DNA from: Thermococcus sp. 2319x1
Lineage (GTDB): Archaea > Methanobacteriota_B > Thermococci > Thermococcales > Thermococcaceae
Assembly (NCBI RefSeq): GCF_001484685.1
Contig: NZ_CP012200.1
Span: 614,321-678,320 of the forward strand
DNA: 64,000 nt
Reading direction: 5' to 3'
Shown: piece after piece, positions 6,500-23,241 of the stretch
How positions within the stretch are numbered: position 1 is the stretch's first letter
How the letters are laid out: each line of letters begins with the position of its first letter
The notes under the pieces: model-generated
Databases searched by the model: none
Seen by the model: only the letters and a program-made list of their open reading frames with translations
Told to the model about the DNA's origin: nothing
Program-made: the position numbers and the translations under genes

Positions 6500-6504
6500 T
6501 CCCA

Positions 6505-7485
6505 TCACCACTTTACAACCTTGCTCAGGAAGCGCGGATTATCGGGATTGAGGCCCATTTGAACCGCTTTGTAGTAGGCCAAGAGCTGGATAACCGGGAG
6601 GTAGACGATTGGTGCAATAGCCCCCTCCAGCTCTTGAGTCTTCAGGAAATAGTCAGCTCCCGTGTTTTCGGGAGCAACCGTGAAGACCTTCGCACCCTGA
6701 TTCTGGAACTCCTTTGTGAGCTTCTCGTGCCAATCAAAGGGCCTATTGGTAAGCAAAACAACGAGTGTTCCATCATCTGCTATCGACTTGAAGCCGTGCC
6801 TGACCTCGAAGGTATGATATGCCTCGCTCCAGAAGAGCGCCATTTCCTTCATCTTCAGCATTGCTTCGAGGGCTACTGGGTAGAGGATCCCCGAACCGAG
6901 GAATATGACGTTCCTGAAGTCAAAGGAATCCACGAGATTCCTGATGTATGGCTCTGCTTTGAGTACCTCTTCCGTGAGCTGTGAGATTTCAAGGGCGTTA
7001 TAAGTCTCCCTACCCCACGATTTCAGAAGGAGCTGGAGGTAGGCAAAGTAGAAAGCCGGGAAGGAGTGAGTCATCACAATGCTCTCCTCATGAGTAGGAA
7101 CGATCAGAGCATAGTCTGCCATTCTTGAGAGCGTGCTCTCGTAGGCTGTGAGGGCAAGCTTGGGGATGTTTAGTGCCTCAATGGCCATTATCGCCTCGGT
7201 AGTCTCCCCAGAACGCGAGATTGAAACGAGGAGCTGAGGGGTTCCCAAAGGATAGTATTCGCGGGAATAAAGAAGTTCGGAGCAAGGGAGGGCAATTCCC
7301 CTGCCCCCCAGGTGTGTGGTTATCATGGCCAGCAACTGCGACAGAAAGTAAGAGGAACCACAACCCGTAAAGAGAACTTCACCGGGTATCTTGAATTCGT
7401 ATAGATTAGCAAACCTTTCAAAAGCCTTCTGAGCCTCAAGAATTCCTTTCGGAATCCTTCTGATTTCCTTGATCGTCTTGTGCAT
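6505..7485 (-). CDS. glmD: glucosamine-6-phosphate deaminase, SIS-domain type
   Basis: The protein has two SIS (sugar isomerase) halves related to the isomerase half of GlmS. Visible motifs are [14 protein letters not shown] near residue 40, [12 protein letters not shown] near 90 and a C-terminal lobe with [20 protein letters not shown]. The T. kodakarensis orthologue converts GlcN-6-phosphate to fructose-6-phosphate and ammonia, and is unrelated to bacterial NagB. ATG 7485 is chosen since GAGGGTGAGGGG directly precedes it; a longer in-frame extension overlaps the upstream ATPase gene. It starts four bases after the ATPase stop and ends just before glmA, so the three are co-transcribed. The 326-residue length fits the archaeal enzyme. 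Confidence 0.9.
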
Positions 7486-7489
7486 CCCC

Positions 7490-8455
7490 TCACCCTCCAA
7501 CGTTATAGCATGCGACCCAGTGGTTTTTCTCGAATTCAACTACTTCAGGCCTAACCCTCCAGCACTTCTCAGTGGCCAGCGGGCAGCGCGGAGTGTAATT
7601 ACACCCAACTATCTCGTAAACACCTTCCTCTTCCTCAGGCCGAACCTCACCCCTGAACTCCCACTTAACATTCAAGTCAGGCACACTCTCCAAAAGCATT
7701 TTAGTGTACGGGTGCAAAGGATTCTTGAAAACCCTCTCAGTATCACCAAACTCCACCAAGCGCCCCCTGTACATGATCAACGTCGTATCACTGATGTAGT
7801 ACCCCAAGGCAAGATCATGCGTAACGAAAAGCACTGAAGTCCCAAGCCTATCCCTCACCTCACCCAAAAGATTCAAAACATCAATCCTCGTGCTTGCATC
7901 AAGCATCGAAACCGCCTCATCCGCCACTAGGAGTGAGGGCTCGATGAGTAAAGCCCTAGCTATTAAAACACGCTGCAACTGCCCCCCACTGAGCTGGTGA
8001 GGATACTTACCAAGAACCTCATCGGGATTAAGACCAACACTCTCCAAAGACTTAACCATCAAATCCTCCCGCTCCTCCCCATTCATATTGGGGAAAAAAT
8101 TACTGAAAACCAAGTCGAACGTCCTATCCACAGGATACAACGGGTTAAAACTCGCGAAAGGATCCTGAAAGACCGCCTGAACCTGCTTGTAGTAATACTT
8201 CCTCAGCCTACTCCCGCTAAACTCACTGATATCCTCCCCCCTGAAGAGAATCCTACCCGACGTTGGAGTTAAAAGCCTCAAGATGAGCTTTCCGATGGTC
8301 GTTTTTCCACTACCACTCTCCCCAACCAGGGAAATAATTTCACCCTCCCCAATGTTGAAACTAACATCATCCACAGCCCTAACCTGAAAACCCCCAATGA
8401 AACCCGAAGTGAAAACCTTAGTCAAGTGCTCAACCCTAACCAAAGGCTCACTCAT
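7490..8455 (-). CDS. ABC transporter ATPase, OppF/DppF-like (chitooligosaccharide uptake)
   Basis: This is an oligopeptide-family ABC ATPase. The P-loop GESGSGKT is at residues 45-52, the signature [15 protein letters not shown] is about 110 residues later, Walker [13 protein letters not shown] follows, and the C-terminal oligopeptide/dipeptide extension with a Cys cluster ([15 protein letters not shown]) is present. In some family members this cluster binds an Fe-S cluster. It powers import with its partner ATPase, whose stop overlaps this start by four bases (ATGA). Placement between the permeases and glmD/glmA indicates that the substrate is diacetylchitobiose or related sugars rather than peptides; this is inference from context. 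Confidence 0.9.
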
Positions 8456-9426
8456 TCCTCATCACCCCCGTAAAGATGACAAGCAACCAAATGATCATCC
8501 TCCACACTGACCACCTTCGGCTCAACCCTCGGACAGTGCTCCATCGCGTAAGGACACCGCGGGTAAAACCTACAGCCTTCAGGCGGGTTGAGAAGGCTTA
8601 TAGGATAGCCGGGAATACCCTTCAGCTTAGTCTGCTTGTAGTGCACACCAATCTTTGGAAGGGCTTCGATGAGCATTGAAGTGTACGGGTGCGCTGGAGA
8701 ATTAATGACCTCCTCAGTCGGACCAATCTCAACCACCTTACCCGCGTAGAGAACCATAACCCTATCCGCTATCTTGTCAAGGAGAGCCAGATCATGAGTC
8801 ACGAAGATTATGGACTTAACGATTTCTTCCTTCATGAAGTAATGGAGGAGCTCGAGAACAACCCTTTGCGTTGTAACGTCAAGCGCTGAAGTAATCTCGT
8901 CAGCAATGAGCAAGTCCGGGTTCAATAGCGTTGAAACAACCATCGTTGCCCTCTGCCTCATCCCACCACTTAGCTCCACCGGGTACATGTCAGCGACTTT
9001 CTCACTGAGTTTAACCATCCTAAGCCTCTCCCTGAGGAGTTTCTCAACCTCCCCCCCGTTCGTTTCCCCATGCTCCCTCGCCAAATCCCAAACAATATCC
9101 TTGATTTTTTTGGTAGGGTTTAGGGCGTTCATAGCATACTGGGGAACTATTGAAAGCTCATTGTACTTTATCTTGCGCTCTTCCTCTTTGCTGAGCTTCA
9201 TGAGATCCTTTCCCTTGAATATTGCGTCTCCACCCATGTGAGTCATCGGAGGCTTGCGAAGTATGAAGGAGTGAACGAGAGTGGATTTACCACACCCACT
9301 CTCCCCCGCTATCCCGAAAACCTCACCCTCCCTAACGTCAAAGGACACACCATCAACAGCCTTAACATAACCCACAGGAGTCTTGTAGTAGATTTTAAGG
9401 TTTCTCACATCGAGAATTCTCTTCAT
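8452..9426 (-). CDS. ABC transporter ATPase, OppD/DppD-like
   Basis: This is the second nucleotide-binding subunit of the importer. The P-loop GESGCGKST is at residues 41-49, the signature ELSGGMRQRATMV and Walker B LLIADEITSALD are in order, and the H-loop is in [12 protein letters not shown]. The C-terminal oligopeptide-family extension with RFYPRCPYAMEHCPRV carries the Cys cluster. The start overlaps the permease stop (ATGA) and the stop overlaps the OppF-like start (ATGA), so translation of the three genes is coupled. Like its neighbour it is assigned to chitooligosaccharide uptake because of the operon, while family membership alone would suggest peptides. Confidence 0.9.
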   Translation of the reverse strand: MKRILDVRNLKIYYKTPVGYVKAVDGVSFDVREGEVFGIAGESGCGKSTLVHSFILRKPPMTHMGGDAIFKGKDLMKLSKEEERKIKYNELSIVPQYAMNALNPTKKIKDIVWDLAREHGETNGGEVEKLLRERLRMVKLSEKVADMYPVELSGGMRQRATMVVSTLLNPDLLIADEITSALDVTTQRVVLELLHYFMKEEIVKSIIFVTHDLALLDKIADRVMVLYAGKVVEIGPTEEVINSPAHPYTSMLIEALPKIGVHYKQTKLKGIPGYPISLLNPPEGCRFYPRCPYAMEHCPRVEPKVVSVEDDHLVACHLYGGDEE

Positions 9427-10346
9427 TCACCACCCCTCCTAAGCCTCGGATTGAAAACCTCGTCAAGTCCCGTGTTTATGAAGTAGAGACCTGTTATCAG
9501 GAGGGCTATGACGAGTCCAGGCGGTATTGCCCACCACCAATAGCCAAGCTGTATTGCGTTCCACAGCACTGCATTCTGAAGGATGATTCCGAGGGATATT
9601 CCCCTCGTGGGACCGAGACCTATGAAGTCGAGGCCAACAGCTGCCAGTATTGCACCACCGAACTGGAGGATGAAGACCATGAAGACGTAGGAGACCATGT
9701 TGGGCATTATCTCCCCGAAGATTATGGCCAGGTCCCTCATACCCGCTATCTTGGCCAGCGCCACGAACTCCCTGTTCTTCAGTGAGAGGGTCTGTGCTCT
9801 CACGGCTCTTGCGGTCCAAGGCCAGGCTGTCAGGCCGATGATTATGCCCTCTATCAGGATGCCCCTGTAGGTCACGTAAGCTGCTATGATGATAAGCAGG
9901 GCTAGGGTCGGGATGACGAGCAGTATGTTGGTCAACATCATGAGTATCTCGTCCACCCAGCCGCCCTTGTAGCCTGCCACGAAGCCGATGACAAGGCCAA
10001 TTAGCGTGGCAAGGTTGCCTCCGACGAGACCCACGAACAGTGAGCTCCTCAGACCGTGGACGAGCTGGCTGTAAAGGTCCCTTCCAAAGCTGTCAGTCCC
10101 AAGGTAGTGCTTGACCCTAACGACCCCTTGAGGGGTGAATATCTCCCCCATCTCCCCGGGCGGAAGGTTGGCGATTGAAGCTTTGGTTACCGACCTATCC
10201 CCGATTTTAATAACGTAATAGCCGAGTGGGTCAAATTTAGAGAACATGGGGCCTATCAGAGCAAAAATAATGAAGAAGCCCACTATGACAACCCCTATCT
10301 TGAACTTGTTGTTTTTTAGTGCGATCCGCAGAGTGTTCCCCTTCAT
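9423..10346 (-). CDS. ABC transporter permease, OppC/DppC-like
   Basis: This membrane subunit has an N-terminal helix (VVIVGFFIIFALIGPMFS), a short extracytoplasmic loop and five further hydrophobic segments forming the BPD_transp_1 fold. The coupling-helix region lies around TAWPWTARAVRAQTLSL. The OppC-type N-terminal segment and the motif LGTDSFGRDLYSQLV, typical of OppC/DppC, identify it. Its ATG follows directly on the stop of the OppB-like gene (TGA then ATG), and its own stop overlaps the OppD-like start, so the genes form one translation-coupled operon. It is 307 residues long and intact. Confidence 0.9.
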   Translation of the reverse strand: MKGNTLRIALKNNKFKIGVVIVGFFIIFALIGPMFSKFDPLGYYVIKIGDRSVTKASIANLPPGEMGEIFTPQGVVRVKHYLGTDSFGRDLYSQLVHGLRSSLFVGLVGGNLATLIGLVIGFVAGYKGGWVDEILMMLTNILLVIPTLALLIIIAAYVTYRGILIEGIIIGLTAWPWTARAVRAQTLSLKNREFVALAKIAGMRDLAIIFGEIMPNMVSYVFMVFILQFGGAILAAVGLDFIGLGPTRGISLGIILQNAVLWNAIQLGYWWWAIPPGLVIALLITGLYFINTGLDEVFNPRLRRGGE

Positions 10347-11345
10347 TCACTCTCCCCCCGTGTAGGAGTACTTGACCCTCGGATCTATGACAACGTACAG
10401 GAGGTCTATCACGAAGTTGGCAACGAGGACGTTCAGGATTATCATCAGGAAGCAGCCCTGTATGAGGAAGTAATCCTGGTTGAGTATGCCCTGCATCAGT
10501 ACGTAACCAATTCCCGGATAAGAGAATACGACCTCCGTGGTCAGTGCACCTGCAACGATGAGACCGAGCTGGAGTGCAAGTCCAGTGACCTGTGGGAGCA
10601 TTGCGTTTCTGAAGGCGTGCTTGAGTATAAGCCTCTCCGAGGAACCCAGGGCCTCAAGGTAGTGCGCGTAGTCCGCCTCTATCTCATAGATTATCATGTT
10701 CCTCATTCCTATCGCCCAGCCTCCAAGCTGGACGAGGAAGAGGCTCAGGAACGGGAGCGTCCAGTGGTGCAGGAAGTCCTTGATAAACGCCCAGCTCAGT
10801 GAGGGTATTATCCCGTAGCTGTACGCCCCTGAAACCGGGAATAAATCCAGCTTAACACCCAGAAGGTAAGCTAAGACTATAGCAAACCAGAAGTAGGGTG
10901 AAGCTGTCAGGAAGTAGAAGACCGGCATTAGGTAGGAGTCCATCTTCCTGTTCTTACCGGCCAGGGCCCCCAGCCAGTTTCCGACTATCCAGCTGAGGAC
11001 AATTGAAGGCACGAGAAGTGCAATATCATAGGGAAGGGCACTCTTTATGATTTCAGCAACGGGTTTTGGGTAGTAGTAAATGCTTATACCCAAATCGCCG
11101 TGTAGAAGGGCGTTCCAGAACGAAATGTACTGCTCCCAAAGGGGTTTATCCAGACCGAAGGCCTGAATGAAGTAGGAGTGAAGGTGTTCGGCAACGTTCG
11201 GCAGGGTTGCAAACCTCGACAAAAGCACTGCCACCGGATCCCCCGGCATGAACCTCGGGATGGCCCAGTCTATGGTGACCGCGAAGAAAAACGTGAGTAT
11301 GTAAATCAAAATCTTTCTGGTGAGGTACCTCTTTATTCCGCTCAC
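10347..11345 (-). CDS. ABC transporter permease, OppB/DppB-like
   Basis: This is the first permease of the operon, with an N-terminal helix after RYLTRKILIYILTFF and the OppB hallmark IDWAIPRFMPGDPVAVL, followed by about five more membrane segments. The C-terminus carries VVIDPRVKYSYTGGE, the usual ending of this family. The start is GTG at 11345, supported by GGAGGGGAG four bases upstream. It lies 83 bp downstream of the solute-binding protein gene, a gap that could hold a processing or attenuation site, as binding proteins are usually made in excess. It is 332 residues long and intact. Confidence 0.9.
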   Translation of the reverse strand: MSGIKRYLTRKILIYILTFFFAVTIDWAIPRFMPGDPVAVLLSRFATLPNVAEHLHSYFIQAFGLDKPLWEQYISFWNALLHGDLGISIYYYPKPVAEIIKSALPYDIALLVPSIVLSWIVGNWLGALAGKNRKMDSYLMPVFYFLTASPYFWFAIVLAYLLGVKLDLFPVSGAYSYGIIPSLSWAFIKDFLHHWTLPFLSLFLVQLGGWAIGMRNMIIYEIEADYAHYLEALGSSERLILKHAFRNAMLPQVTGLALQLGLIVAGALTTEVVFSYPGIGYVLMQGILNQDYFLIQGCFLMIILNVLVANFVIDLLYVVIDPRVKYSYTGGE

Positions 11346-11428
11346 ATCTCTCCCCTCCGTCAGTTTGAGCCCAGTGGTATTATTTTATGCGCCCCAAGAA
11401 AAAATAAAAATGTCGGAATGCCAAAAAG

Positions 11429-13237
11429 TCACCTCTTCCTCTTTCTGAGGAGAAGCGGGACGACTGCAAGTCCCACGAGCACTGCCGGACCGCAGATGCC
11501 TCCACCTTCGCTGGATGAAGTAGTTGTTGTCTGGGAGGTTGTGCTGCTCTTAACGGGCTTTATGCCAAGGAGGACCTTTAAGCCGCCCATCTGCCAGTAG
11601 TTGTTCCAGCTTATCGGATAAGCGTACGGGTTCTTCTCGGTAGGCCAGTTTGTCCAGTGGGCAGGGCTGGCCTCGAACCAGGCACCGTTGTAAACTATCG
11701 GGATAGCTGGCACTTCCTTGAGCATTATTTCCTGGAGCTCCCTGTAGTACTGGAGTTTCTTGTTCTCGTCCTTCTCGGTGTTTATTAGCTCAAGGAGCTC
11801 GGTTACCCTGTCGTTCTTGTACCTGCCCCAGTTCCCTGAGTAGGATGGCTCCCCAACGGAGGTAACGTCCGGGTAGAGAACCCAGTTGAACCACTGCCAG
11901 GGCGTGGCGTAAACCTGGCTTCCGAAGTTGTTGATCGCCATGTCAAAAGTGCCCTTGGTCAGGTCCTCCCAGTACTTGCTGTAATCCGGGAACTTGGGCT
12001 CCGCGCGTATTCCGACTGCTGCAAGCTGCTCGCTGATGATCCTGATCATCTCCATCCAGTCGGTCCATCCGTATGGGACTATTATCTCGAACTTCATTGG
12101 ACTACCGTCCGGGAACTCCCTGTAGCCGTCGCCGTTCACATCCTTGAAGCCGAGGCTATCGAGTATCTGAATAGCCTTCTCGGGATCGTACTTCCAGCCG
12201 TACTTCTCCTCAAGGTCCTTTGCCTTTATCTTTTCAAACACCGGAACAGGTAGGAGTCCAGTTGGGTCAGCAGGCAGAACCTGATTCTGCTGAGCCCTCG
12301 CGGCAATTTCCTCGGGGTTTATCGCATAGGCAAGTGCCCTTCTAAAGTCCGGGTTGTTGAGGGGTTCCTTCTGAGTGTTCAGGAAGAGGAACGCGGTGTT
12401 GGCTGGAAGGTGATAGGGCTTGTCATCGTACCAAGTCACTATGTTGTAAGTGCTCTTGACATCTGGGACACCCGGGATGAAGAAGTTGCTCCAGTCAAGA
12501 TCGCCCTTAACAAGCATCGAGAGAGCAACGTTGTTGCTGTAGACTATGACGTAAACGATGTACTTCGGAGCGGGCTTACCAAATACCTTGGTTCCCCACC
12601 AGTCGTCGTTCCTAATCCAGATAGCCCTCATCTCGTCGGTCTTGTAAAGCTTGTACATACCCGAACCCACTGGGTTTTCGGTGTTGGCGTAGGAAATCGG
12701 ATCTTCAATGCTCTCCCATATGTGCTTTGGAACTATCGGAACGTTGTACAGCCAGTAGGTCCACTCCTCGTAGTGGGGCTGGCTGAAGACGAACTGAACT
12801 GTTCTGTCGTCCACGACCTTTACTTCGCTGAGCCAGTCCCATATCGGGGCCCACCCAACGCCGCCGTTTTCCTTGGCAATGTCAAAGGTGAACTTCACGT
12901 CATCAGCGGTCAGCGGCTTTCCGTCCTGCCACTTAAGGCCCTCCCTGAGCTTCACTTCGTAGGTGTTGTCGCTTACCCACTGGCCGGATTCGGCAAGCCA
13001 GGGCTCAAGCTTGTCGTTCAGCGGGTCGTAAATAAACATCGTCTCGTAGAGAAGTCCTATAGTTCCGGTAACTGCGGCCCACGGGGTCAGCGGGTTGAAG
13101 TTGTTTGGCTGGCTCCAAAGGCCACCACCCACGTACAGGGTTTCGTCCCTCGGTAGTTCCTCGGCACGGACGTATCCGGAGCTCAAGACGTTTGCAAACA
13201 CCACCAGGGCTATTATAGCACCCAACAGTTTCTTCAT
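11429..13237 (-). CDS. ABC transporter solute-binding protein (SBP family 5) with CGP-CTERM tail
   Basis: This is a family-5 (oligopeptide/sugar) binding protein of about 602 residues that captures the substrate outside the cell. The start is ATG 13237 behind GGTGGTG, giving MKKLLGAIIALVVFANVL as a signal peptide cleaved near YVRAEE. The body shows LRDGLKWQDGKPLTADDVKF-like features of family 5. The C-terminus has a Ser/Thr-rich linker (SSTTSQTTTTSSS), GGGICGP, a hydrophobic helix and a basic RKRKR end: the CGP-CTERM signal peculiar to Thermococcales, thought to allow lipid anchoring at the Cys. It is the first gene of the leftward chitin operon, transcribed divergently from the GH1 gene. A second, damaged paralogue lies at 19738-21561. 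Confidence 0.92.
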   Translation of the reverse strand: MKKLLGAIIALVVFANVLSSGYVRAEELPRDETLYVGGGLWSQPNNFNPLTPWAAVTGTIGLLYETMFIYDPLNDKLEPWLAESGQWVSDNTYEVKLREGLKWQDGKPLTADDVKFTFDIAKENGGVGWAPIWDWLSEVKVVDDRTVQFVFSQPHYEEWTYWLYNVPIVPKHIWESIEDPISYANTENPVGSGMYKLYKTDEMRAIWIRNDDWWGTKVFGKPAPKYIVYVIVYSNNVALSMLVKGDLDWSNFFIPGVPDVKSTYNIVTWYDDKPYHLPANTAFLFLNTQKEPLNNPDFRRALAYAINPEEIAARAQQNQVLPADPTGLLPVPVFEKIKAKDLEEKYGWKYDPEKAIQILDSLGFKDVNGDGYREFPDGSPMKFEIIVPYGWTDWMEMIRIISEQLAAVGIRAEPKFPDYSKYWEDLTKGTFDMAINNFGSQVYATPWQWFNWVLYPDVTSVGEPSYSGNWGRYKNDRVTELLELINTEKDENKKLQYYRELQEIMLKEVPAIPIVYNGAWFEASPAHWTNWPTEKNPYAYPISWNNYWQMGGLKVLLGIKPVKSSTTSQTTTTSSSEGGGICGPAVLVGLAVVPLLLRKRKR

Positions 13238-13422
13238 AGACACCACCCCGACCCCCCTGTTCATAATGGGGGGCCTGTAGTGTAATATGCGCTAATCATT
13301 TATAAGTTTTCCTCGAGTTTATAATAACTTGGATCAGGATTTATAAAACTGGCCCAAACATTTATAAAATCGAATCCCCAAACTATTCAACAGCAATGTA
13401 ATGAAGCTGGAGGTTGATTACG
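13238..13422. promoter_or_regulatory. divergent promoter region between chitin transporter operon and GH1-RHH-PIN operon
   Basis: The 185-bp gap between the binding-protein gene and the first GH1 gene contains four TTTATAA elements near 13299, 13318, 13340 and 13362. Some can serve as TATA boxes for each direction. The rightward gene has GGAGGT eight bases before its ATG; the leftward gene has GGTGGTG. The repeated spacing suggests co-regulation, but I see no clear inverted repeat and cannot name a regulator. Confidence 0.55.
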
Positions 13423-14961
13423 ATGCTACCGGAAGAATTCCTGTGGGGCGTTGGGCAGTCGAGCTTTCAGTTCGAAATGGGCGACAAGCTCAGGAGGCAC
13501 ATTGACCCGAACACCGACTGGTGGAAGTGGGTTCGTGACCCTTTTAACATAAAAAAGGAGCTTGTGAGTGGAGACCTTCCAGAGGACGGCATCAACAACT
13601 ACGAACTTTTTGAGAATGACCACAAGCTCGCCAGAGGCCTCGGCCTCAACACCTACAGGATTGGAATAGAGTGGAGCAGAATCTTTCCCTGGCCGACGTG
13701 GACGGTCGATACCGAGGTTGAGTTCGACACTTACGGGCTAATAAAGGACGTTAAGATAGACAAGTCCACCCTTGCGGAGCTCGACAGACTGGCCAACAAG
13801 GAGGAAGTCCTGCATTACAGGCGCGTCATTCAGCACTTAAGGGAGCTCGGCTTCAAGGTTTTTGTGAACCTCAACCACTTCACGCTTCCAATCTGGCTCC
13901 ACGACCCCATAGTGGCAAGGGAGAAGGCCCTTACCAACGACAGGATCGGCTGGGTCTCCCAGAGGGCGGTTGTTGAGTTTGCTAAGTATGCCGCTTACAT
14001 TGCTCATGCGCTCGGAGACCTCGTGGACACCTGGAGCACCTTCAACGAACCGATGGTCGTCGTTGAGCTCGGCTACCTCGCCCCCTACTCAGGATTTCCT
14101 CCCGGTGTTATGAACCCGGAGGCGGCGAAGCTGGCGATCCTCAACATGATAAACGCCCACGCTTTGGCCTATAAGATGATAAAGAGGTTCGACACCAAGA
14201 AGGCCGATAATGACAGTAAGTCCCCAGCGGACGTTGGCATAATTTACAACAACATCGGCGTTGCATATCCAAAGGACTCCAACGATCCCAAGGATGTTAA
14301 AGCCGCCGAAAACGACAACTACTTCCACAGCGGACTGTTCTTTGATGCCATCCATAAGGGGAAGCTCAACATCGACTTCGACGGCGAAAACTTTGTAAAA
14401 GTTAGGCACTTAAAGGGCAATGATTGGATAGGCCTAAACTACTACACCCGCGAGGTCGTCAGGTATTCGGAGCCCAAGTTCCCGAGTATACCCCTAATAT
14501 CGTTCAAGGGCGTTCCCAACTACGGCTACTCCTGCAGACCTGGCACAACCTCCGCCGATGGCATGCCCGTCAGCGACATAGGCTGGGAGGTCTATCCCCA
14601 GGGCATCTACGACTCGATAGTCGAGGCCACCAAGTATGGCGTCCCGGTTTACGTCACCGAGAACGGCGTTGCGGATTCAGCGGACACACTGAGGCCCTAC
14701 TACATAGTCAGCCACGTCTCAAAGATAGAGGAAGCCATTGAGAATGGATACCCCGTAAAAGGCTACATGTACTGGGCGCTTACCGACAACTACGAGTGGG
14801 CCCTCGGCTTCAGCATGAGGTTTGGCCTCTACAAGGTCGACCTTATCTCCAAGGAGAGGATTCCGAGGGAGAGGAGCGTTGAGATATATCGGAGGATAGT
14901 TCAGTCCAACGGGGTTCCTCAAGACCTCAAAGAGGAGTTCCTTAAAGGTGGGGAGAAATGA
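13423..14961 (+). CDS. GH1 family beta-glycosidase (chitin island copy 1)
   Basis: This is a 512-residue GH1 enzyme. The acid/base Glu is E209 in TFNEPM and the nucleophile is E413 in VTENGV; the N-terminal QSSFQFE and the Trp-rich ALTDNYEWALGF near the C-terminus are subsite residues of the family. It resembles the beta-glycosidase of the T. kodakarensis chitin cluster rather than the well known CelB type: the early WVRDPFNIKKELVSGDLPEDGINNY insertion is shared with the second copy here. The natural substrate is unknown; a chito- or gluco-oligosaccharide is plausible. ATG 13423 is chosen with GGAGGT eight bases upstream. Its TGA overlaps the ATG of the following RHH gene, so all three genes of the cassette are translation-coupled. 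Confidence 0.88.
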   Translation: MLPEEFLWGVGQSSFQFEMGDKLRRHIDPNTDWWKWVRDPFNIKKELVSGDLPEDGINNYELFENDHKLARGLGLNTYRIGIEWSRIFPWPTWTVDTEVEFDTYGLIKDVKIDKSTLAELDRLANKEEVLHYRRVIQHLRELGFKVFVNLNHFTLPIWLHDPIVAREKALTNDRIGWVSQRAVVEFAKYAAYIAHALGDLVDTWSTFNEPMVVVELGYLAPYSGFPPGVMNPEAAKLAILNMINAHALAYKMIKRFDTKKADNDSKSPADVGIIYNNIGVAYPKDSNDPKDVKAAENDNYFHSGLFFDAIHKGKLNIDFDGENFVKVRHLKGNDWIGLNYYTREVVRYSEPKFPSIPLISFKGVPNYGYSCRPGTTSADGMPVSDIGWEVYPQGIYDSIVEATKYGVPVYVTENGVADSADTLRPYYIVSHVSKIEEAIENGYPVKGYMYWALTDNYEWALGFSMRFGLYKVDLISKERIPRERSVEIYRRIVQSNGVPQDLKEEFLKGGEK

Positions 14962-15215
14962 AAACCATAGCCGTTGATGAGGACACCTGGGAGGCTATAA
15001 AGAAGCTCAAGGCCAAGCTGGATGCACGGTCTTACGACGAGGTACTCAGGAAGCTCATCGAGGCATGGCACCTCGTGGAGTTTGACCTCAAGACGGAAAA
15101 GGTCGTCCTGGACGACGATGAGGCCGAGCTCATGATTAACCTTATAAAGGACAGGGAGAGAGCGATATCAAGAGGAGGTAGCCATGAGAAGACTTCCCAA
15201 GAGGGTGGTCTTTGA
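14958..15215 (+). CDS. vapB: RHH-type antitoxin-like protein (cassette copy 1)
   Basis: This is a small 85-residue protein beginning MKTIAVDEDTWEAIKKLKAK with SYDEVLRKLIEAW, the beta strand plus helix-turn-helix pattern of ribbon-helix-helix VapB antitoxins. The start (ATGA) overlaps the GH1 stop by four bases, and the C-terminal coding part overlaps the PIN gene by 32 bp. This position is unusual: the antitoxin is translated from the tail of a catabolic enzyme gene. It may autoregulate with the PIN partner, or act as a regulator of the glycosidase cassette. The first 69 residues are close to the second copy at 23238; the last part, reading HEKTSQEGGL, is only the shadow of the PIN gene start. 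Confidence 0.75.
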   Translation: MKTIAVDEDTWEAIKKLKAKLDARSYDEVLRKLIEAWHLVEFDLKTEKVVLDDDEAELMINLIKDRERAISRGGSHEKTSQEGGL

Positions 15216-15672
15216 TCCGCAAGCCCTCATCGAGATAAACAGGAGACGAAACAGGGACATCCTGGAGTTCATACTGGCCGAGTTCGAAGTCTTCGTGCCT
15301 TTCCCCTCTCTACATGCCTATTTTCTCGGGAAGGCCTACCTGGGCCGCAACGTTGAGGAGGATCTCTCCAGGTTTGAGGAGATCTACCGGACCACATATC
15401 CTGATAGGGAGCTTTTGATAAAACTCGTGAATATAGAGGCCTCCCTCATAAAAGAGGGAGTTTTCATGTCTCTCGAGGACCTATTAACGGGTGTTTCCGC
15501 AATAATGGTCGAGGCCCTCCTGGTTTCCACGGAACCGGAGAGGTTCAAGCCCCTCAAAAAGTACGGCCTCGACTGCGTGGGTCTTGAGAAGTTCTTTGAG
15601 GAAGTCGGCGAGCTGGCGAGGGAGGAGATAAAGAAAAAGAAATCGGGGGCAAAGGAAAGCACCGTTAAATAA
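15184..15672 (+). CDS. vapC: PIN-domain protein, VapC-like (cassette copy 1)
   Basis: This 162-residue protein has a PIN fold: VVFDPQALIEIN holds the first Asp, a central Glu-rich helix follows, and FMSLEDLLTGVSAIMVEALLVSTEPERF is the DxLTG plus last-acidic region. In the second copy that last motif reads TADQDRY; here the Asp is replaced by Glu/Pro (STEPERF), so nuclease activity may be weakened. ATG 15184 is preceded by GAGGAGGT. It overlaps the RHH gene by 32 bp. It is the last gene of the GH1-RHH-PIN unit. A role as RNase toxin or as an RHH-bound regulator cannot be decided from sequence. Confidence 0.72.
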   Translation: MRRLPKRVVFDPQALIEINRRRNRDILEFILAEFEVFVPFPSLHAYFLGKAYLGRNVEEDLSRFEEIYRTTYPDRELLIKLVNIEASLIKEGVFMSLEDLLTGVSAIMVEALLVSTEPERFKPLKKYGLDCVGLEKFFEEVGELAREEIKKKKSGAKESTVK

Positions 15673-15718
15673 CGCTGCTTTCGTGAAGTTTTTATATCCG
15701 TTTCTTGATTGTCTGCTC

Positions 15719-16870
15719 ATGGAGCGGAGAAGACTCGTAGGCATTGCCCTGCTCGTGGTCTCAGCATTCACAGGAACCCTCGCCTTTCGCCTTGCCACAC
15801 CCGCCATAGCCTTCTACACGAGGGACACGCTCAGCGCGAGCATGCTGGCGGTTTCCATAGTTTCCATGTCCTTCGTTTTGGCCAGAGCTTTTTCCTCGGT
15901 GTTCGGTGGCCTCCTCCTTGAGAAGAGGAAGTCCCTCCTCCACATCGGCGGAATTGCCATGATGGGGAATGCGCTGGCCGTTCACCTCTACCCTCTCACC
16001 TCAAACTGGATTCAGGTCGCTGGAATAAAGCTCCTCAACGGCTTTCTCAACGGCCTCAGCTGGCCCATGGCCCAGTTCGTCGTTGCCGTGGCGACTCCAC
16101 GGGAGATACGTGCGAGAGTTACGGCCGTTTACTTCTTCTTCGGCAGCATCGCTTCCCTCCTCGGCAATTATATTTACGCCTACACGATAGATTTTGGACT
16201 TTCTGGCCAGATGTGGATATCTTCTGTCTTCTTTGTGCTGACCGGACTGATAATGATAATCGCCTACATCCTCCTCTCTGACTGGATAGTACCGAAAAGG
16301 GAGAAAAAGAGCTCTCAGGGGCCTTCCCTTGACCCAAGAAAAGTCCTCGTGATAGCTTCCTTGATGGCAGTCATAGTGGCGTTTACCTCGGGAGAGATAA
16401 CGTACGTCTACGTCTCCGAGGCCCTTGGGCTGGAAAAGGCAACTACCGCGACCCTACTGGGGTGGGTTGACTTCTTCGCATCTTTACTCAGCTACTTCTC
16501 CTCTTGGTTTGCGGATAAGGTCAGCGAGGTTGGGATGGTAAAGCTGACGGCCGTACTTGCCGGGATTTCGCCGCTCCTCGCGGCCGTTAAAACATCGTTC
16601 ACCGTTTTCCTCGGGATATTTCTAGCTCTCTTCGCCTTCCAGAGTTTCAGGCCCATATCCAGAAAGGTACTCGCCAGCTACCACCGCTCTTCCCTGGCCA
16701 TAGGCGGGGTTAACGGCGTTCAGAACCTCTCGACTTTCCTTGGAGGGGTTTTCTTTGGCCTTGCGTATTCAATAGGGGAAATCCACGTTGGGGTTACCTT
16801 GAACGGGGCGCTCCTGGCGTTTACGCCGGTCTCAGTGATTCTACTCCTTAAGGCGTCTGCCATTAGGTGA
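15719..16870 (+). CDS. MFS transporter
   Basis: This 383-residue membrane protein has about twelve hydrophobic segments in two halves. The loop after helix 2 reads SFVLARAFSSVFGGLLLEKRK, with a basic G-x3-R/K-rich stretch as in major facilitator permeases, and a charged central loop (SDWIVPKREKKSS) separates the halves. The substrate is unknown; the neighbourhood suggests sugar or drug export. ATG 15719 is chosen because TTTTTATAT at about 15688-15697 places the transcription start only a few bases upstream, that is, a nearly leaderless mRNA; an upstream GTG would overlap this TATA box. It is downstream of the PIN gene but has its own promoter. Confidence 0.85.
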   Translation: MERRRLVGIALLVVSAFTGTLAFRLATPAIAFYTRDTLSASMLAVSIVSMSFVLARAFSSVFGGLLLEKRKSLLHIGGIAMMGNALAVHLYPLTSNWIQVAGIKLLNGFLNGLSWPMAQFVVAVATPREIRARVTAVYFFFGSIASLLGNYIYAYTIDFGLSGQMWISSVFFVLTGLIMIIAYILLSDWIVPKREKKSSQGPSLDPRKVLVIASLMAVIVAFTSGEITYVYVSEALGLEKATTATLLGWVDFFASLLSYFSSWFADKVSEVGMVKLTAVLAGISPLLAAVKTSFTVFLGIFLALFAFQSFRPISRKVLASYHRSSLAIGGVNGVQNLSTFLGGVFFGLAYSIGEIHVGVTLNGALLAFTPVSVILLLKASAIR

Positions 16871-16961
16871 CATCACCATCGGTTTTTAACTTTTGGAGTT
16901 AGAAATATTTATATTTGTATCTACCACCCATATTACGAAATAACTGCATTAGGAGATAACC

Positions 16962-18323
16962 ATGAAATTTTGGAAGCATGTTTGGGCAGCAATACTTGTT
17001 GTACTTGTCCTAGCCCTGCCGGGAGTGGCGGCTCTCTCTTACCCCTGGGCAGGATTCCCGGTTTTTGGGCCAGAGTCCGGTGCATACCCAATCCGCTTGG
17101 TTGGGGTTGATCAGAAGGACAACATTGCCATAGTAACTTGGGATGTGCCAACTAACTGCTTATCTGGTATGGGGACTGTCCTCATGAGCAAAGACGGCCA
17201 TAATATTGCGGAGAGTGTCAATCTTGGCCGCTTAAAACCCTGGGGCAAGAAAGTTGCCGTTGTAGTCCAAGTGAGGGAACCCCTCTATGTGAAGCTCCGC
17301 ATTATTGCAGGGAACGGGGTGTTCATGAGTTCCTGGGTCAAGCTCACACCGGATTCGCGGCATCCATACACACCAACGGGTGAAAAAGGTGTAATAACCC
17401 CCCAGCTATTCCCTGGACTGGCCCTTCTGATAGTTGCTGGGTTGACACTTTGGGATGCATACGACACCTACAAGACCTGCAAGAACTACGGCATAGACTC
17501 AATGGAATGTAAAGTCCAGGGGACGTTCTTTGTGGTGGGCCTTGCGCTTCCTGGGGACGAGGGCATAAAGCTCGTAAAGAAGGGCGCTACCAAAATCGGG
17601 GTAACTAGTAAGATTTACAGGGTTCTCAAGAATGCTAAAATTATTGACAACGCGGATAATGTTCTAACAAAATTCACCCATATTTTTGATGACATCGCCA
17701 AATATGGTGATGATGCTGCAGACGCTTTGGACAACCTGCTCGGGAGAGGGATTACAAGTGATGCCATAGAAAATACAGTGAAACACGGCGTAACTCTAAA
17801 AGCCTTAAGAGAGGGCATCGAAAAAGCTGACAGGCATTTTTCAAGGAAATTCAGCACCGTTTGGACTCCTCTCTGGGGGAGTGCTTACAAAGTTGGTGAC
17901 GTCAGTGATTCCATGATAACTATCCCCAGAGGTAACGAGAGGATGGGATTAATACATTCATTCCTCAGGCATATCTGGGGTTATGAGGCAGAAGTTAAAC
18001 CCATGACATCCTTCTGGCCTATAGGTCAGAGGGTTACCATTAACGGCAAAACCCTCCAAATGCCCAAGGTCTTTAAGGACGAAGGGGAGGTTGCGGAATT
18101 TGCAAGTGACGTCCTTCAGAGGGCTTTAAAGCTCGATAAATACAGGGGACAATTCACGAGTGGCAGAGTTGTTCTAGATGTTGATCTCTCAGACGTTGGC
18201 ATCTACAAACCCGGAATAGACTCGGTAACGTATGTCTTTGCCTGCGAGGGAAGGACATGTGGCTTAATAACAATGTATCCAAATGGTCCCGAGGTAGTGA
18301 TTTACAAGAGGTTTGGGGGATGA
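16962..18323 (+). CDS. secreted toxin-like protein with C-terminal candidate effector domain
   Basis: This is a 453-residue exported protein not assignable to a named family. Residues 1-25 form a signal peptide (basic start, AAILVVLVLALPG, AALS). Residues 25-125 look like an extracellular beta-rich domain. A second hydrophobic helix, LFPGLALLIVAGLTLWDAY, is at about 148-166, followed by DTYKTC and LALPGDEGIKLVKKGATKIG, which recalls the pretoxin linker that precedes effector domains in polymorphic toxins. The last 150 residues are soluble; LIHSFLRHIWGYEAEVK and a C-terminal GLITMYPNGPEVVIYK strand pair are reminiscent of BECR-fold RNase toxins, an inference only. TATA AAATATTTATATTT lies about 65 bp upstream and AGGAGAT precedes ATG 16962. 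Its TGA is embedded in the ribosome binding site of the next gene, the usual toxin-immunity arrangement. Confidence 0.6.
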   Translation: MKFWKHVWAAILVVLVLALPGVAALSYPWAGFPVFGPESGAYPIRLVGVDQKDNIAIVTWDVPTNCLSGMGTVLMSKDGHNIAESVNLGRLKPWGKKVAVVVQVREPLYVKLRIIAGNGVFMSSWVKLTPDSRHPYTPTGEKGVITPQLFPGLALLIVAGLTLWDAYDTYKTCKNYGIDSMECKVQGTFFVVGLALPGDEGIKLVKKGATKIGVTSKIYRVLKNAKIIDNADNVLTKFTHIFDDIAKYGDDAADALDNLLGRGITSDAIENTVKHGVTLKALREGIEKADRHFSRKFSTVWTPLWGSAYKVGDVSDSMITIPRGNERMGLIHSFLRHIWGYEAEVKPMTSFWPIGQRVTINGKTLQMPKVFKDEGEVAEFASDVLQRALKLDKYRGQFTSGRVVLDVDLSDVGIYKPGIDSVTYVFACEGRTCGLITMYPNGPEVVIYKRFGG

Positions 18324-18327
18324 TGTT

Positions 18328-18990
18328 ATGGAGGAGTTGCTGCTTGAGGGAAGGCATTTTACTGTGAGGGTTTTTACTAACCGGCCTGTTGATTATGCTT
18401 TTCCTTTTTTTGGCATTATCCTCGTTGATGGAGAGTTAATTGCCGGCACGTGCATGATTGAGGGGGAGAGAAAAACCCTCTCCCCAATTGATTTAGACCC
18501 ATATGTTACCTTTCAGGATTTGCTTGATTGTTGTGAGTTTTTCCTGTTTGATACGGAGGAGCAGGGTGGATATAGGGTTGGAGACATTAGGAGGCACGCT
18601 AAGAAGCATGGTTTTCCCGTGGGAGAAAAGACAAGATTATTCTGGTCAAGCTTAGGCGTATACATGGGAGATTACACCTTCGAACTCGCGAACAATACCG
18701 TAAACCTCCATTACTACAATAATTATCTCAAGTTGAGCAATGGTTGTCCTGAGTTTGAGGGGAGGTATAAGGGCACGATTTTAATTCCCCTGAAAGAGTT
18801 TGTAGAGGACGCTTTGAAGTTAAGCTACGAGTACCTGACAAAACACGGGCCAATACTCGATGAGCTCTTTATAAAGGAGGGACTTAGACCAACCAGTGAA
18901 GAGCTCTATGATGCGTTATGGAAGAGGCACAAAACGGTCAAGAAACTATATGAGGAAATCTTTTCTGGGGGTAGTAAATCTTCAGGGTGA
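18328..18990 (+). CDS. unknown protein coupled to the toxin-like gene; candidate immunity protein
   Basis: This is a soluble 220-residue protein without signal peptide or membrane segment, as expected for a cytoplasmic partner. ATG 18328 is preceded by GGGGGATG, whose last bases are the toxin stop, so translation is coupled. Internal features are an acidic first half with DLLDCCEFFLFDTEE, a central RRHAKKHGFPVGEK and a helical, charged C-terminus (SEELYDALWKRHKTVKKLYEE). I recognise no family. Its first 40 bp are repeated immediately behind its own stop (18988-19027), where a second truncated copy begins. Strict adjacency to the exported protein and the duplication of its 5' end support an immunity role; proof is lacking. 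Confidence 0.55.
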   Translation: MEELLLEGRHFTVRVFTNRPVDYAFPFFGIILVDGELIAGTCMIEGERKTLSPIDLDPYVTFQDLLDCCEFFLFDTEEQGGYRVGDIRRHAKKHGFPVGEKTRLFWSSLGVYMGDYTFELANNTVNLHYYNNYLKLSNGCPEFEGRYKGTILIPLKEFVEDALKLSYEYLTKHGPILDELFIKEGLRPTSEELYDALWKRHKTVKKLYEEIFSGGSKSSG

Positions 18991-18994
18991 TGTT

Positions 18995-19093
18995 ATGGAG
19001 GAGTTGCTGCATGAGGGAAGACATTTTCGTTGTGAAAATGGATGCGGGGAGATGTTCTCGAACAGCCGGGTGCTATGGTCGTCTACCGTTTAA
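18995..19093 (+). pseudogene. truncated second copy of the candidate immunity gene
   Basis: ATG 18995 opens a frame reading MEELLHEGRHF, nearly identical to MEELLLEGRHF of the gene at 18328, with the same GGTGATGTT leader. Homology stops after 40 bp (two mismatches); the frame then runs through unrelated residues to a TAA at 19091-19093. It is therefore the 5' end of another immunity-like gene joined to foreign DNA. Such orphan immunity fragments are left when toxin/immunity arrays recombine. Confidence 0.6.
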
Positions 19094-19113
19094 CCGTTAA
19101 GCTTAAAGGTTGG

Positions 19114-19497
19114 ATGATAAGGCAGAACGCCCTTGAGGCCATCCGTATCCAGGTGAACAGGTACCTCCAGAAGAACGTTGGAAGGAGCAACTACAACTTC
19201 AAGATCAGGGTTTATCCGTTCCAGGTTCTCCGTGAGAACCCGATGGCAACCGGAAGGAAGGCTGACCGTTACGGAAACGGTATGCGCAGGCCCTTTGGAA
19301 AACCGATTGGACTTGCCGCCAGGGTTAGGAAGGACCAGAAGATACTCACCGTCTGGGTGAACGGCCAGCACCTCAAGTTCGCCCTCGGTGCAATGCACAG
19401 GGCCAAGATGAAGCTCCCCTACAGTGCCTACTACAGGATCTACGATAAGGAAGGCAACGACGTTACCACGAAGGTTCTCTCCACCATGAAGCTCTGA
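19114..19497 (+). pseudogene. rpl10e: ribosomal protein L10e (rpl10e), 5'-truncated copy
   Basis: From about 19117 the frame encodes [20 protein letters not shown], the [19 protein letters not shown]-type core (here [20 protein letters not shown]) and a normal C-terminus ending [10 protein letters not shown], all diagnostic of archaeal L10e (universal uL16). An intact archaeal L10e has about 180 residues; roughly the first 55, with the conserved YTRREYI/GAPGP region, are absent and replaced by unrelated sequence (in-frame ATG at 19042). The remaining frame is undamaged, so the truncation is recent or the fragment is a partial duplicate. A full copy is expected elsewhere in the genome since L10e is essential. 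Confidence 0.8.
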
Positions 19498-19579
19498 CTG
19501 CATTCTTTTCTTCCTTTGACTTCTGGCGTATATTCATAATGGTTATTAACGGTGCCTCCCTATTCAAACCGGTGGGAGC

Positions 19580-19735
19580 ATGGTAAGCTCGTACTTCAGG
19601 AACCTGTTCCTCAAGCTGGGCCTTCCAGAGGACAGGATGGAAGTTCTTGAATCCAAGGGGGCTCTGGTTGAGGACGAGTTCGAGAGGATAAAATACCTCC
19701 ACTTCAGGGACTCCGCGAGGAACTTCAGGAGGGGA
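19580..19735 (+). pseudogene. 3'-truncated fragment of a small conserved gene
   Basis: ATG 19580, preceded by GGTGGGA, starts MVSSYFRNLFLKLGLPEDRM and continues to about HFRDSARNFRRG. At about 19735 the frame leaves its homologous body and runs into the antisense of the neighbouring binding-protein gene. The residue pattern looks like a genuine protein (amphipathic helices, acidic/basic alternation). It probably followed rpl10e in the donor locus and was carried along with the L10e fragment as one piece of about 620 bp. Function unknown. Confidence 0.45.
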
Positions 19736-19737
19736 AC

Positions 19738-21561
19738 CGCCGCGAGGAGAACCACCACACCAGGCCCGCAGATTCCTCCACCCCCACTGCTCGTTGATGA
19801 TGTCGGAGATTCACTTGAACTGGTTGTAGCTGGGGCTGATGTTGTGGTTGTCTCGGAGACAGGGACTTTAGCGGGCTTGACACCAAGGAGGGCAGGGGCT
19901 GTACCCCAGGTGCCGTAGTTAGTCCAGAAGATTGGAACACCATATGGGTTCTTCTCGTTCGGCCAGTTAGTCCAGTACTCAGTGTTGGCCTCATAGAAGA
20001 GCGTTGCCATGTAAACCGGAGCCGCTGGAACGTCTTGGAGCCAAATCTGGCAGAGCTGCTTTATGTACTGGACCTCTTTGTTCTCGTCGACCGTCTTTCC
20101 AAACTCCTCTAAAATCTGGTCAACCTGTGGGTTCTCGTACTTGCCGTAGTTGGCTCCACCGTCCTTTGAAATGAGCATGTTGAAGACAGCATAAGCGCTC
20201 GGCTGGAAGGTTCCGGACCAGTGGAGGGCAAGGTCGAAGTCACCATTCTGAAGACTCTTCATAAAGAAGTTGGTCCAGTCACCCTTCTCTATCTCGACCT
20301 CAATTCCAACGGCCTTGAGCTGGTTCGCTATGATCTCACCGGCTTGGAGCCAGTCGTTACAGCCGGCACATGTGACGAATTTGAGCTTGAGCGACTTGCC
20401 GTTGTACTCCCTGATGCCGTCGCCGTCGGTATCCTTGATACCAGCCTCGTCGAGGAGCTTTATTGCCCCGGCAACATCACCGTACTTCCAGCCGTACTAG
20501 CTGATGAGGCCGTCAATACCAACCTTGTTGCTCCACTTGTTTAGGAGACCCGGACCGAATGGAACCTGCTTTGGAAGGTCGCTTATCGGACCCTGGTTGA
20601 CGATCTGGTAAGGGTTGATTGCCATCGCTATTGCCCTTCTGACTTTCGGATTGTCGAGCGGGGCGTGCTTGGTGTTGAAGTAGAGCAGAACGGGGGCAAC
20701 GGGCGGGAAGTAGGGGTACCTGTCGAGCCAGCTCGCGAGCTTGGGGTTCTTCTGCTTGGCCGAAACTATGTCGATATAATAGGTACCGACGTCGAGGTCG
20801 CCCTTGATGAACATGTTGGCGGCCTGGTTGTTGTCGGTGACGTAGAGCTGGACGATGTACTTTGGTCCGGGCTTTCCGAAGATCTTTGCTCCCCACCAGT
20901 CCTCATTCCTCTCAAGGATGGCCTTTTCCTGTCCCACTATCTCCTTGAGCTTGTAGGCTCCAGAACCGACGAGGTACTTCATCTCATCGCCGGTGAAGGT
21001 CATCTTTGGTATGTCCTCGGGGTTGATCTTCTCAAAAACGTGCTTCGGAACTATGAGTGCACCCTGTCCCCAGCCGAAGAACATCTGAAGCTGCCAGAGC
21101 TGATAGTTGGGGGTCCCCTCGAAGATAAACTGAACCGTCCTGTCATCAACGACCTTTATCTCCTTGAGTCCGAGGTTGCCCCAGTTCCTGAGGCCAATCT
21201 TTTCGTAGTACTCATAGGAGAACTTGACGTCTTCGGCGGTCAGGGGCTTGCCGTCCTGCCACTTGAGGCCCGATCTGAGCTTGACTTCAAAGGTGTCGTC
21301 GTCAACCCACTTGGCACTTTCTGCAAGCCACGGTTTGAGCTCACCGGTCATGAAGTTGAACATGCACAGAGGCTCAAAAACAAGACCATCTATTCCAAGC
21401 ACTGAGCCTCCCGTGAACGGGTTGGCGTTCGTTGGAGGGGCGCTGTTGGCAGTGTAGAGGGTCTCATTCCTTGGCAGACTTTCTGCCGCCAAACCGTATC
21501 CAGCCCCGAAGAGGCTGGCCAGTAAAATGGCCATAAGGCCCATGGCTACGGCTTTCTTCAT
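19738..21561 (-). pseudogene. second family-5 solute-binding protein, in-frame TAG and truncated CGP-CTERM
   Basis: This is a paralogue of the binding protein at 11429-13237: signal peptide MKKAVAMGLMAILLASLFGAGYG from ATG 21561 (GGTGGTG ahead), the LRSGLKWQDGKPLTAEDVKF motif and the same order of conserved segments. A TAG at 20499-20497 interrupts it after GIDGLIS; the same frame continues without error (YGWKYGDVAGAIKLLDEAG) to the C-terminus. There the Ser/Thr linker and GGGGICGPGVVVLLAAVPLL are followed not by a basic RKR tail but by residues read from the antisense of the 19580 fragment, to a stop at 19564. Two lesions are thus visible: a nonsense codon and loss of the last anchor residues. 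Without readthrough the product would lack its C-terminal lobe. No permease or ATPase genes accompany it. Confidence 0.8.
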
Positions 21562-21786
21562 AGGCACCACCACTTATAATGTTGATCATTTTTATAGTTT
21601 AAGCCCAATCTATATAAACCTTTTTATTATATAGACCTGAGCCGATAACTGCAAAAATGCCCTAAATACCACATTGGGCTATCCAGTGAGCGATGTTCCT
21701 GAGGAGGCAAAAACGCCAAACAGCAAAATGCCAAGGTTACGAAAATTATAAAAAAGGTTAGAGTTATAATTTATATAGGTGAAAGC
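21562..21786. promoter_or_regulatory. divergent promoter region of the second binding-protein/GH1 pair
   Basis: Leftward, the reverse strand holds a TATA-like GGTTTATATAG near 21610-21620, about 55 bp before the binding-protein start. Rightward, AAATTATAAAA near 21742-21752 could direct transcription from about 21772 toward the GH1 start at 21787, which has GGTGA five bases before its ATG. The organisation mirrors 13238-13422, but the two intergenic sequences have diverged and I see no shared long motif. Confidence 0.45.
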
Positions 21787-23241
21787 ATGGCGGAGTTTGC
21801 ATGGGGTGTTGTACAGTCAGCGTTTCAGTTCGAGATGGGCGATCCTCTCAGGAGGTTCATAGATACGAGGAGTGACTGGTGGCACTGGGTCCGCGACCCT
21901 TTCAACATAAAAAACGATCTCGTGAGCGGCCATCTTCCGGAGGATGGCATAAACAACTACGGACTCTATGAGATTGACCACCAGCTTGCGAAGGATATGG
22001 GGCTCAACGCCTATCAGATAACGGTTGAGTGGAGCAGAATCTTCCCCTGCCCGACTTTTGGAGTCGAAGTTGATTTTGAGAGGGACTCCTACGGACTTAT
22101 AAAGAGGATAAAGATAACCAAAGAAACCCTCAAAGAGCTCGAAGGGCTCTCAAACCTTAGAGAAGTGAAGCACTACAGAAAAGTCTTAGGGAACCTCAAA
22201 AAGCTGGGGTTCTCCACTTTCGTAACCCTGAACCACCAGACCCAGCCGATATGGCTCCATGACCCTATAGAAGTCAGACAGAACTTCGAGAAAGCCCGGG
22301 CCAAGGGGTGGGCCGATGAAAGAGCCATACTTGAGTTTGCCAAGTTTGCAGCATTTGCCGCCTGGAAGCTCGGAGACTTGGTCGACTTCTGGGCGACCTT
22401 TGATGAGCCAATGGTGACTGTGGAGCTCGGCTATCTGGCACCCTACGTTGGGTGGCCCCCCGGAATACTAAACCCCAAAGCTGCCAAAGCAGTTATCATA
22501 AATCAACTCGTTGGACACGCAAGGGCCTATGATGCTATAAAAGCATTTTCGGACAAACCCGTTGGGATAATCCTCAACATAATCCCAGCATATCCCCGCG
22601 ACCCAAACGACCCTAAGGACATGAAGGCCACCGAGAACTACGACCTCTTCCACAATAGGATATTCCTGGATGGAGTAAACGAAGGAAAGGTTGATCTTAA
22701 TTTCGACGGAGACTACGCCAAAATCAATCACTTGGAGAGAAACGACTGGATAGGCGATAACTACTACACCAGGGAAGTGATAAGGTACACAGAGCCAAAA
22801 TACGATGAGCTTCCGATAATAAACTTCGTAGGAACGGAAGGCTACGGCTACTCTTCAGAGCCCAACAGCGTCTCCAAGGACAACAACCCAACGAGCGACT
22901 TTGGCTGGGAGTGCTTCCCTCAGGGGATGTACGATTCAATAATGATCGGAAACGAGTATGGAAAACCCGTTTACATAACGGAAAATGGAATAGCCGATTC
23001 CAGGGACCTTTTAAGACCGAGATATATAAGGGAACACGTGACAAAGATGTTTGAAGCAATTCAAGCCGGCGCCGACGTGAGGGGATATTTCCACTGGGCA
23101 CTCACGGATAACTACGAATGGGCGATGGGTTTTAAAATAAAGTTCGGCCTCTATGAGGTTGACCCGATAAGCAAGCAGAGGATACCAAGACCCAAGAGCA
23201 TAGAAACCTACAAGAAAATTGTGCGGGAGGGATTACCTTGA
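21787..23241 (+). CDS. GH1 family beta-glycosidase (chitin island copy 2)
   Basis: This 484-residue paralogue of the enzyme at 13423 shares QSAFQFEMGDPLRRFID, DPFNIKNDLVSGHLPEDGIN and the order of all conserved blocks. The nucleophile is E399 in ITENGI. The acid/base Glu is E207, but the motif reads TFDEPM instead of the family TFNEP: the Asn that normally hydrogen-bonds the sugar 2-substituent is Asp. WIGDNYYTR likewise has Asp where copy 1 has Leu (WIGLNYYTR). These changes could alter specificity at the 2-position, for example toward amino sugars, which is inference. ATG 21787 has GGTGA upstream. Its TGA overlaps the TTG start of the following RHH gene. Confidence 0.87.
   Translation: MAEFAWGVVQSAFQFEMGDPLRRFIDTRSDWWHWVRDPFNIKNDLVSGHLPEDGINNYGLYEIDHQLAKDMGLNAYQITVEWSRIFPCPTFGVEVDFERDSYGLIKRIKITKETLKELEGLSNLREVKHYRKVLGNLKKLGFSTFVTLNHQTQPIWLHDPIEVRQNFEKARAKGWADERAILEFAKFAAFAAWKLGDLVDFWATFDEPMVTVELGYLAPYVGWPPGILNPKAAKAVIINQLVGHARAYDAIKAFSDKPVGIILNIIPAYPRDPNDPKDMKATENYDLFHNRIFLDGVNEGKVDLNFDGDYAKINHLERNDWIGDNYYTREVIRYTEPKYDELPIINFVGTEGYGYSSEPNSVSKDNNPTSDFGWECFPQGMYDSIMIGNEYGKPVYITENGIADSRDLLRPRYIREHVTKMFEAIQAGADVRGYFHWALTDNYEWAMGFKIKFGLYEVDPISKQRIPRPKSIETYKKIVREGLP

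Follow-up and report, generated by a model that had tools for sequence, protein, structure and literature searches.

Within 64,000 nucleotides of the Thermococcus sp. 2319x1 genome (contig NZ_CP012200.1, positions 614,321 to 678,320; hereafter, the window), two adjoining genes encode an exported protein of 453 residues, the carrier, whose C-terminal domain, the tip, is predicted to be a ribonuclease, and a soluble protein of 220 residues, the partner. We conclude that this module very probably works like an archaeal polymorphic toxin–immunity system. The comparative hallmarks of such systems are present among its relatives: a variable tip is borne on a constant N-terminus, the immunity gene co-varies with the tip, and displaced tip–partner cassettes lie downstream.

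Tip replacement, co-diversification and displaced cassettes

The main comparison, with profiles over 115 genomes of the phylum, gave 29 genomes with the tip domain, 18 with the carrier N-terminus and 23 with the partner; the partner is seldom met without tips, nearly all of its genomes having tip arrays. Single-protein queries of 81 genomes, that of the window included, found the partner in six and the carrier or tip in eight. Because homologues of both genes keep the same order in other genomes, the pairing of carrier and partner goes beyond chance.

Mean identity among 15 carriers was 70% for the N-terminus, 48% for the tip and 32% for the partner. At two loci with syntenic flanks, in genomes that are closely related (L041 and L094; L and G codes denote the loci and genomes compared), the N-termini are 96% identical, the tips 37% and the partners 18%, that is, constant carriers bear variable tips, as the initial annotation of the window had anticipated. 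The L094 carrier tip, together with its partner, aligns at 90% DNA identity with a displaced L041 cassette (L041 reverse complement 8523-9720 against L094 5854-7066), and the carrier and cassette alignments overlap at L094 5854-5936, which encodes GLLHAFLRH. This pattern is what is expected when a new tip–immunity pair displaces an older pair, or after the reverse deletion.

Across 37 pairs, the distances between tips correlated with those between partners (Mantel rho 0.664, p 0.0005; 2000 permutations, null maximum 0.35), and in the 15 carriers the partial correlation of tip and partner, given the N-terminus, was 0.70 (p 0.0005), the N-terminus itself being uncorrelated with tip (0.08) or partner (-0.13). 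Because tip and partner distances correlate while the N-terminus follows neither, the partner tracks the tip, as immunity proteins do. We take the correlation to show co-transmission and co-diversification rather than binding, since jointly inherited pairs also correlate.

Arrays were mapped by six-frame profile searches for carrier N-terminus, tip and partner, which were then ordered; a tip was labelled automatically as a carrier tip when a carrier N-terminus lay upstream or when it started at profile position ≤6. Carriers are the first genes of the arrays, and the 220-residue family stands 3' of 23/23 carrier tips, with gaps of 1-87 bp. Farther downstream lie 43 displaced tip fragments, 37 of which are followed by the partner family, and a single genome can have up to 12 partner matches, fragments among them. 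By profile position, five of the 43 displaced tips start at 11-17, before or at an HxxxRH motif (described below), 20 at 33-48, just past this motif and at TxFxPxGQ, and four at 55-65, the remaining 14 being short 3' pieces from 101 or later. Many displaced tips have no start codon and follow immediately on a stop, and so look silent. Part of the truncation of the cassettes could come from later decay instead of recombination.

A junction inside the nuclease domain, after HxxxRH, as found in many displaced cassettes, is unusual. We tentatively suggest that specificity might be switched within this domain, the carrier giving the HxxxRH helix and the cassette giving the other half, which starts at TxFxPxGQ, and its matching immunity gene; displaced cassettes would then not be toxins alone, and an active chimeric RNase would arise only on a carrier. 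Such a junction within the catalytic domain, if true, would be an economical route to new toxin–immunity specificities. Provisionally, the new part of the system is this breakage of cassettes inside the catalytic domain, together with a carrier and an immunity family that are unmatched in the libraries searched.

All of the genomes with parts of the module belong to one family, the Thermococcaceae, and most to one genus, and in the genus of the window genome (13 genomes) the 12 others lack the tip, the carrier N-terminus and the partner; we count this sporadic presence (29/115 genomes; 1/13 in the genus) in favour of a polymorphic toxin system. A contig scan with an alignment as query added two loci in metagenome-assembled genomes, of Thermococcaceae archaeon DJKA121 bin.11 and Thermococcus sp. 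AUK257, and the same scan with a single protein as query gave no matches. The tip was not found in plasmids, nor its L048 relative in phages, and 427 genomes from two further archaeal phyla had no match to the tip profile, a null that says little in the absence of a positive control.

A second carrier type (L088/L089) has a longer N-terminus, 21% identical, and extra helical repeats, and bears the same tip and partner families. L048:3741-6501 holds a third type, with an EndoU-like tip and a diverged partner; downstream are a 111-residue open reading frame (ORF) with sub-threshold PD-(D/E)XK matches and then a 184-residue ORF, which are possibly an unrelated displaced tip with its own immunity gene. 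An orphan homologue of the L048 immunity protein (L140:3702-4463) occurs in another genus with no toxin gene nearby. ORFs of at least 451 residues (L138:3626-4981, and 459-residue ORFs in G097, G106 and G111) contain two partner-like stretches in G048 and one in the others, with no toxin seen in L138; these are possibly fused or orphan immunity proteins.

Fold and conserved residues of the tip

The initial annotation had suggested that the C-terminal domain is an effector, perhaps an RNase of the BECR (barnase–EndoU–colicin–RelE) type, and three results support this suggestion: a model of high confidence, a fold match, albeit modest, and a motif that resembles an active site. The tip model, built from 37 aligned sequences, has a predicted local distance difference test score (pLDDT) of 90.1 and a predicted template-modelling score (pTM) of 0.86. 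Its best match in the PDB, clearly ahead of the rest, was chain C of 7M5F (E 0.011, probability 0.91), a nuclease toxin of contact-dependent growth inhibition (CDI) and not a surface structural protein. In the model, helix 329-337 is followed by a beta hairpin, a core helix (374-388) and strands at 401-408, 421-429, 432-441 and 446-449, and the BECR layout, an N-terminal helix and then a four-stranded antiparallel sheet, is present. Five tip residues are near-invariant, namely H332 (31/32), R336 (32/32), H337 (32/32), T349 (34/34) and T437 (35/37, otherwise S), and our guess is that they form a candidate active-site set.

Searches of the window proteins against Pfam, NCBIfam, PADLOC and PHROGs left carrier and partner without any match above cut-off, in agreement with the earlier view that the module had no assignable family, and the Pfam/library scan gave no match to an immunoglobulin (Ig) family in the window carrier. 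When the alignments of carrier, tip and partner were used for profile searches of the PDB sequences, no convincing relatives came up, and a viral structure library gave no significant match. EndoU_bacteria (PF14436) did not match the window tip; only the L048 tip matched it, below cut-off (E 0.0016-0.0065; the longer form scored 17.3 bits against a cut-off of 25.3). The model of the whole carrier, from six sequences, was poor (pLDDT 52) and serves as a hint only; the structured part of the N-terminus covers approximately residues 41-128.

These results bear on the idea that the locus serves surface recognition or adhesion in the manner of the VARTIG (variable Thermococcales Ig) proteins, with a variable C-terminus that sorts kin, accessory downstream proteins and no enzymatic toxin. 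Such loci, in the same archaeal order, likewise have a long exported first gene with a variable C-terminus, smaller co-directed genes and hypervariability (PMC8416519), and the N-terminus of our carrier is predicted to be beta-rich. However, VARTIG partners are mostly membrane proteins, and neither DNase nor RNase domains were reported for those loci, whereas the partners here are soluble, displaced tips travel with them, and the tip has a confident nuclease-like model with near-invariant H/R/H/T/T; we consider this explanation improbable.

Layout and probable acquisition of the locus

The 453-residue ORF has the parts that the initial annotation ascribed to an exported protein: a signal peptide, an N-terminal region of extracellular type, a further hydrophobic stretch and a soluble C-terminus (Table 1). 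The last of these, singled out there as an effector, contains the predicted toxin domain, which spans residues ~307-453 rather than 300-453. Both ORFs are intact and are separated by four bases. The carrier TGA (18321-18323) sits within the G-rich GGGGGATGATGTT, just 5' of the partner ATG (18328), and the earlier description of a stop codon inside the ribosome binding site was fair. The repeat of the partner 5' end is also real, but it is the stub of a second immunity gene and not a complete orphan copy. The window itself retains only one toxin–immunity pair and the stub.

Table 1. Features of the module and its borders (positions in the window).
Feature	Position	Strand	Remarks
Carrier-toxin gene, 453 residues	16962-18323	+	Signal peptide, beta-rich extracellular region, hydrophobic segment, helical pre-toxin region and C-terminal nuclease-like tip; homologues 50-58% identical
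Predicted Sec signal peptide, residues 1-25	16962-17036	+	Read from sequence MKFWKHVWAAILVVLVLALPGVAA; helix 2-18 in low-confidence carrier model; hydrophobic character conserved among relatives
Beta-rich extracellular region, residues 41-128	17082-17345	+	Strands in low-confidence model; best-conserved part of carrier
Second hydrophobic segment, residues 149-172	17406-17477	+	From sequence; model helix 154-172; conserved; possible membrane or pre-toxin element
Toxin domain (tip), residues ~307-453	17880-18320	+	Predicted BECR-type RNase fold
HxxxRH motif (H332, R336, H337)	17955-17972	+	Candidate active-site helix and recombination junction
Predicted cognate immunity gene, 220 residues	18328-18990	+	Soluble, no known family; partner family behind every carrier tip; co-diversification
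Stub of second immunity gene	18985-19027	+	43 nt, 93% identical to 18318-18360 (start of the 18328-18990 gene)
5'-truncated foreign second rpl10e	19042-19494	+	Homology from ~19114; right border of transferred block
Major facilitator superfamily (MFS) transporter (PF07690)	15683-16870	+	Also left neighbour of the toxin locus in genome G084 (L083)

The module has been transferred between genera. The truncated rpl10e at its right border is 97.6% identical in amino acids, over 125 residues, to the G084 copy in L083 and 77% identical in DNA to the resident copy (G000:C1:1335198), and L083 has the order MFS, carrier, array, rpl10e, its MFS protein being 75% identical over 370 residues. Because the rpl10e resembles the L083 copy over the resident one and the order of L083 matches, the block of transporter, toxin, immunity gene and truncated rpl10e was most likely acquired from a Thermococcus-like donor and most likely lost the remaining array and the 5' end of rpl10e through a deletion. 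Across most of 4-22 kb, the window has a G+C content of ~0.50-0.54; past 26 kb, most values are 0.40-0.46. The higher-G+C stretch at ~4139-23241 contains sugar-degradation and ABC (ATP-binding cassette) transport genes around the module; this stretch is possibly one larger transferred island, with which the G+C is consistent, the comparison covering the MFS and rpl10e borders. To the left of the transporter, at 14958-15672, are a small ribbon-helix-helix-like gene and a 162-residue gene without family match, which by their order resemble a VapBC-type pair.

Proposed mechanism and comparison with known systems

We propose that the cell would export the carrier through Sec and then display or release it, and that the carrier tip, a BECR-type RNase, would enter neighbouring, probably related, archaeal cells and degrade RNA. 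The cytoplasmic 220-residue protein would bind the cognate tip, protecting the producer and its kin. Recombination would bring in a new tip with its immunity gene and push the old pair downstream, where it may remain, both as a silent cassette and as a source of residual immunity.

Several observations weigh against this mechanism. Classical polymorphic toxins swap unrelated folds, and the only shuffling observed here is among members of a single tip family, in which all the carriers found end; the pair of ORFs downstream of L048 noted above is a possible exception, on sub-threshold matches. Above cut-off, profile searches assign the tip to no known family, and its fold match to 7M5F is modest (template-modelling (TM) scores 0.36/0.45). 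Apart from the signal peptide, no machinery for secretion or injection was identified, so delivery is a putative step. A stand-alone, secreted form of the domain, with no immunity neighbour, occurs in ~14 genomes, and the carriers of L042, L082 and L095 are broken.

The stand-alone proteins (L047, L086, L097-L103 and L106-L110; mostly 183-195 residues, and secreted in L047, the one inspected) are possibly the ancestor of the domain or a domesticated secreted RNase. Such small single-domain relatives would also suit a barnase–barstar-style pair, in which a secreted RNase, with a cytoplasmic inhibitor, serves nutrition or the clearance of outside RNA with no delivery from cell to cell. Neither tip replacement with displaced tip–immunity arrays nor a dedicated carrier with second hydrophobic and helical pre-toxin regions is predicted by a digestive role, and we regard it as quite unlikely. 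The broken carriers, for their part, would fit an intracellular toxin–antitoxin pair or a functionless, decayed remnant, as would the tight linkage of the pair and its reduction in the window to one copy and a stub; the signal peptide, the long exported carrier, the intactness of both ORFs and the retention of the conserved residues nevertheless make this a very improbable account.

To our knowledge, antagonism among hyperthermophilic archaea is almost unstudied. The archaeal order of the module includes genetically tractable species, and because a predicted toxin, its predicted antidote, a record of tip replacement and a guess at the active site have been found together in that order, toxicity, neutralization and kin discrimination above 80 °C become directly testable. 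As of 2021, experimental characterization of archaeal polymorphic toxins was described as still lacking (PMC8416519). The statement in the initial annotation that such modules are poorly described in hyperthermophilic archaea holds within the literature searched; as a kind, however, archaeal polymorphic toxins had been predicted earlier, with carriers, nuclease tips and immunity genes (Makarova et al. 2019, as cited in PMC8416519). So far as that citation describes them, these predictions share all three parts with the present module.

The closest structural likeness is to CdiA-CT of Serratia marcescens BWH57 (7M5F), the top fold match, a CDI toxin with a BECR RNase fold and its own immunity gene behind it, in which H47, E51, H52 and R89 are likely active-site residues (PMC8616854). 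Its HxxxEH (H47-E51-H52) has the same i, i+4, i+5 spacing as the archaeal HxxxRH. In contrast, TM scores are only 0.36-0.45, sequence similarity is undetectable by profile search, and CdiA-CT is borne on a CdiA filament together with CdiB, an arrangement absent from the archaeal locus. The Tox-Barnase signature of H, H, [ST], FP and [STD] (Zhang et al. 2012, PMC3482391) is compatible with H332/H337, T349, F351-P353 and T437, a likeness to bacterial Tox-Barnase/EndoU tips that is a lead rather than a test of membership; unlike those systems, the module has no above-cut-off match, Imm-Barstar, SUKH and other partners were not found, and the carrier is unrelated. Within the same archaeal order, VARTIG loci share a hypervariable, recombining first gene with smaller co-directed genes, but their first genes encode large Ig-domain proteins without a recognizable toxin domain, the VARTIG study found neither DNase nor RNase domains (PMC8416519), and the genes downstream encode mostly membrane proteins, whereas the partner described here is soluble by sequence.
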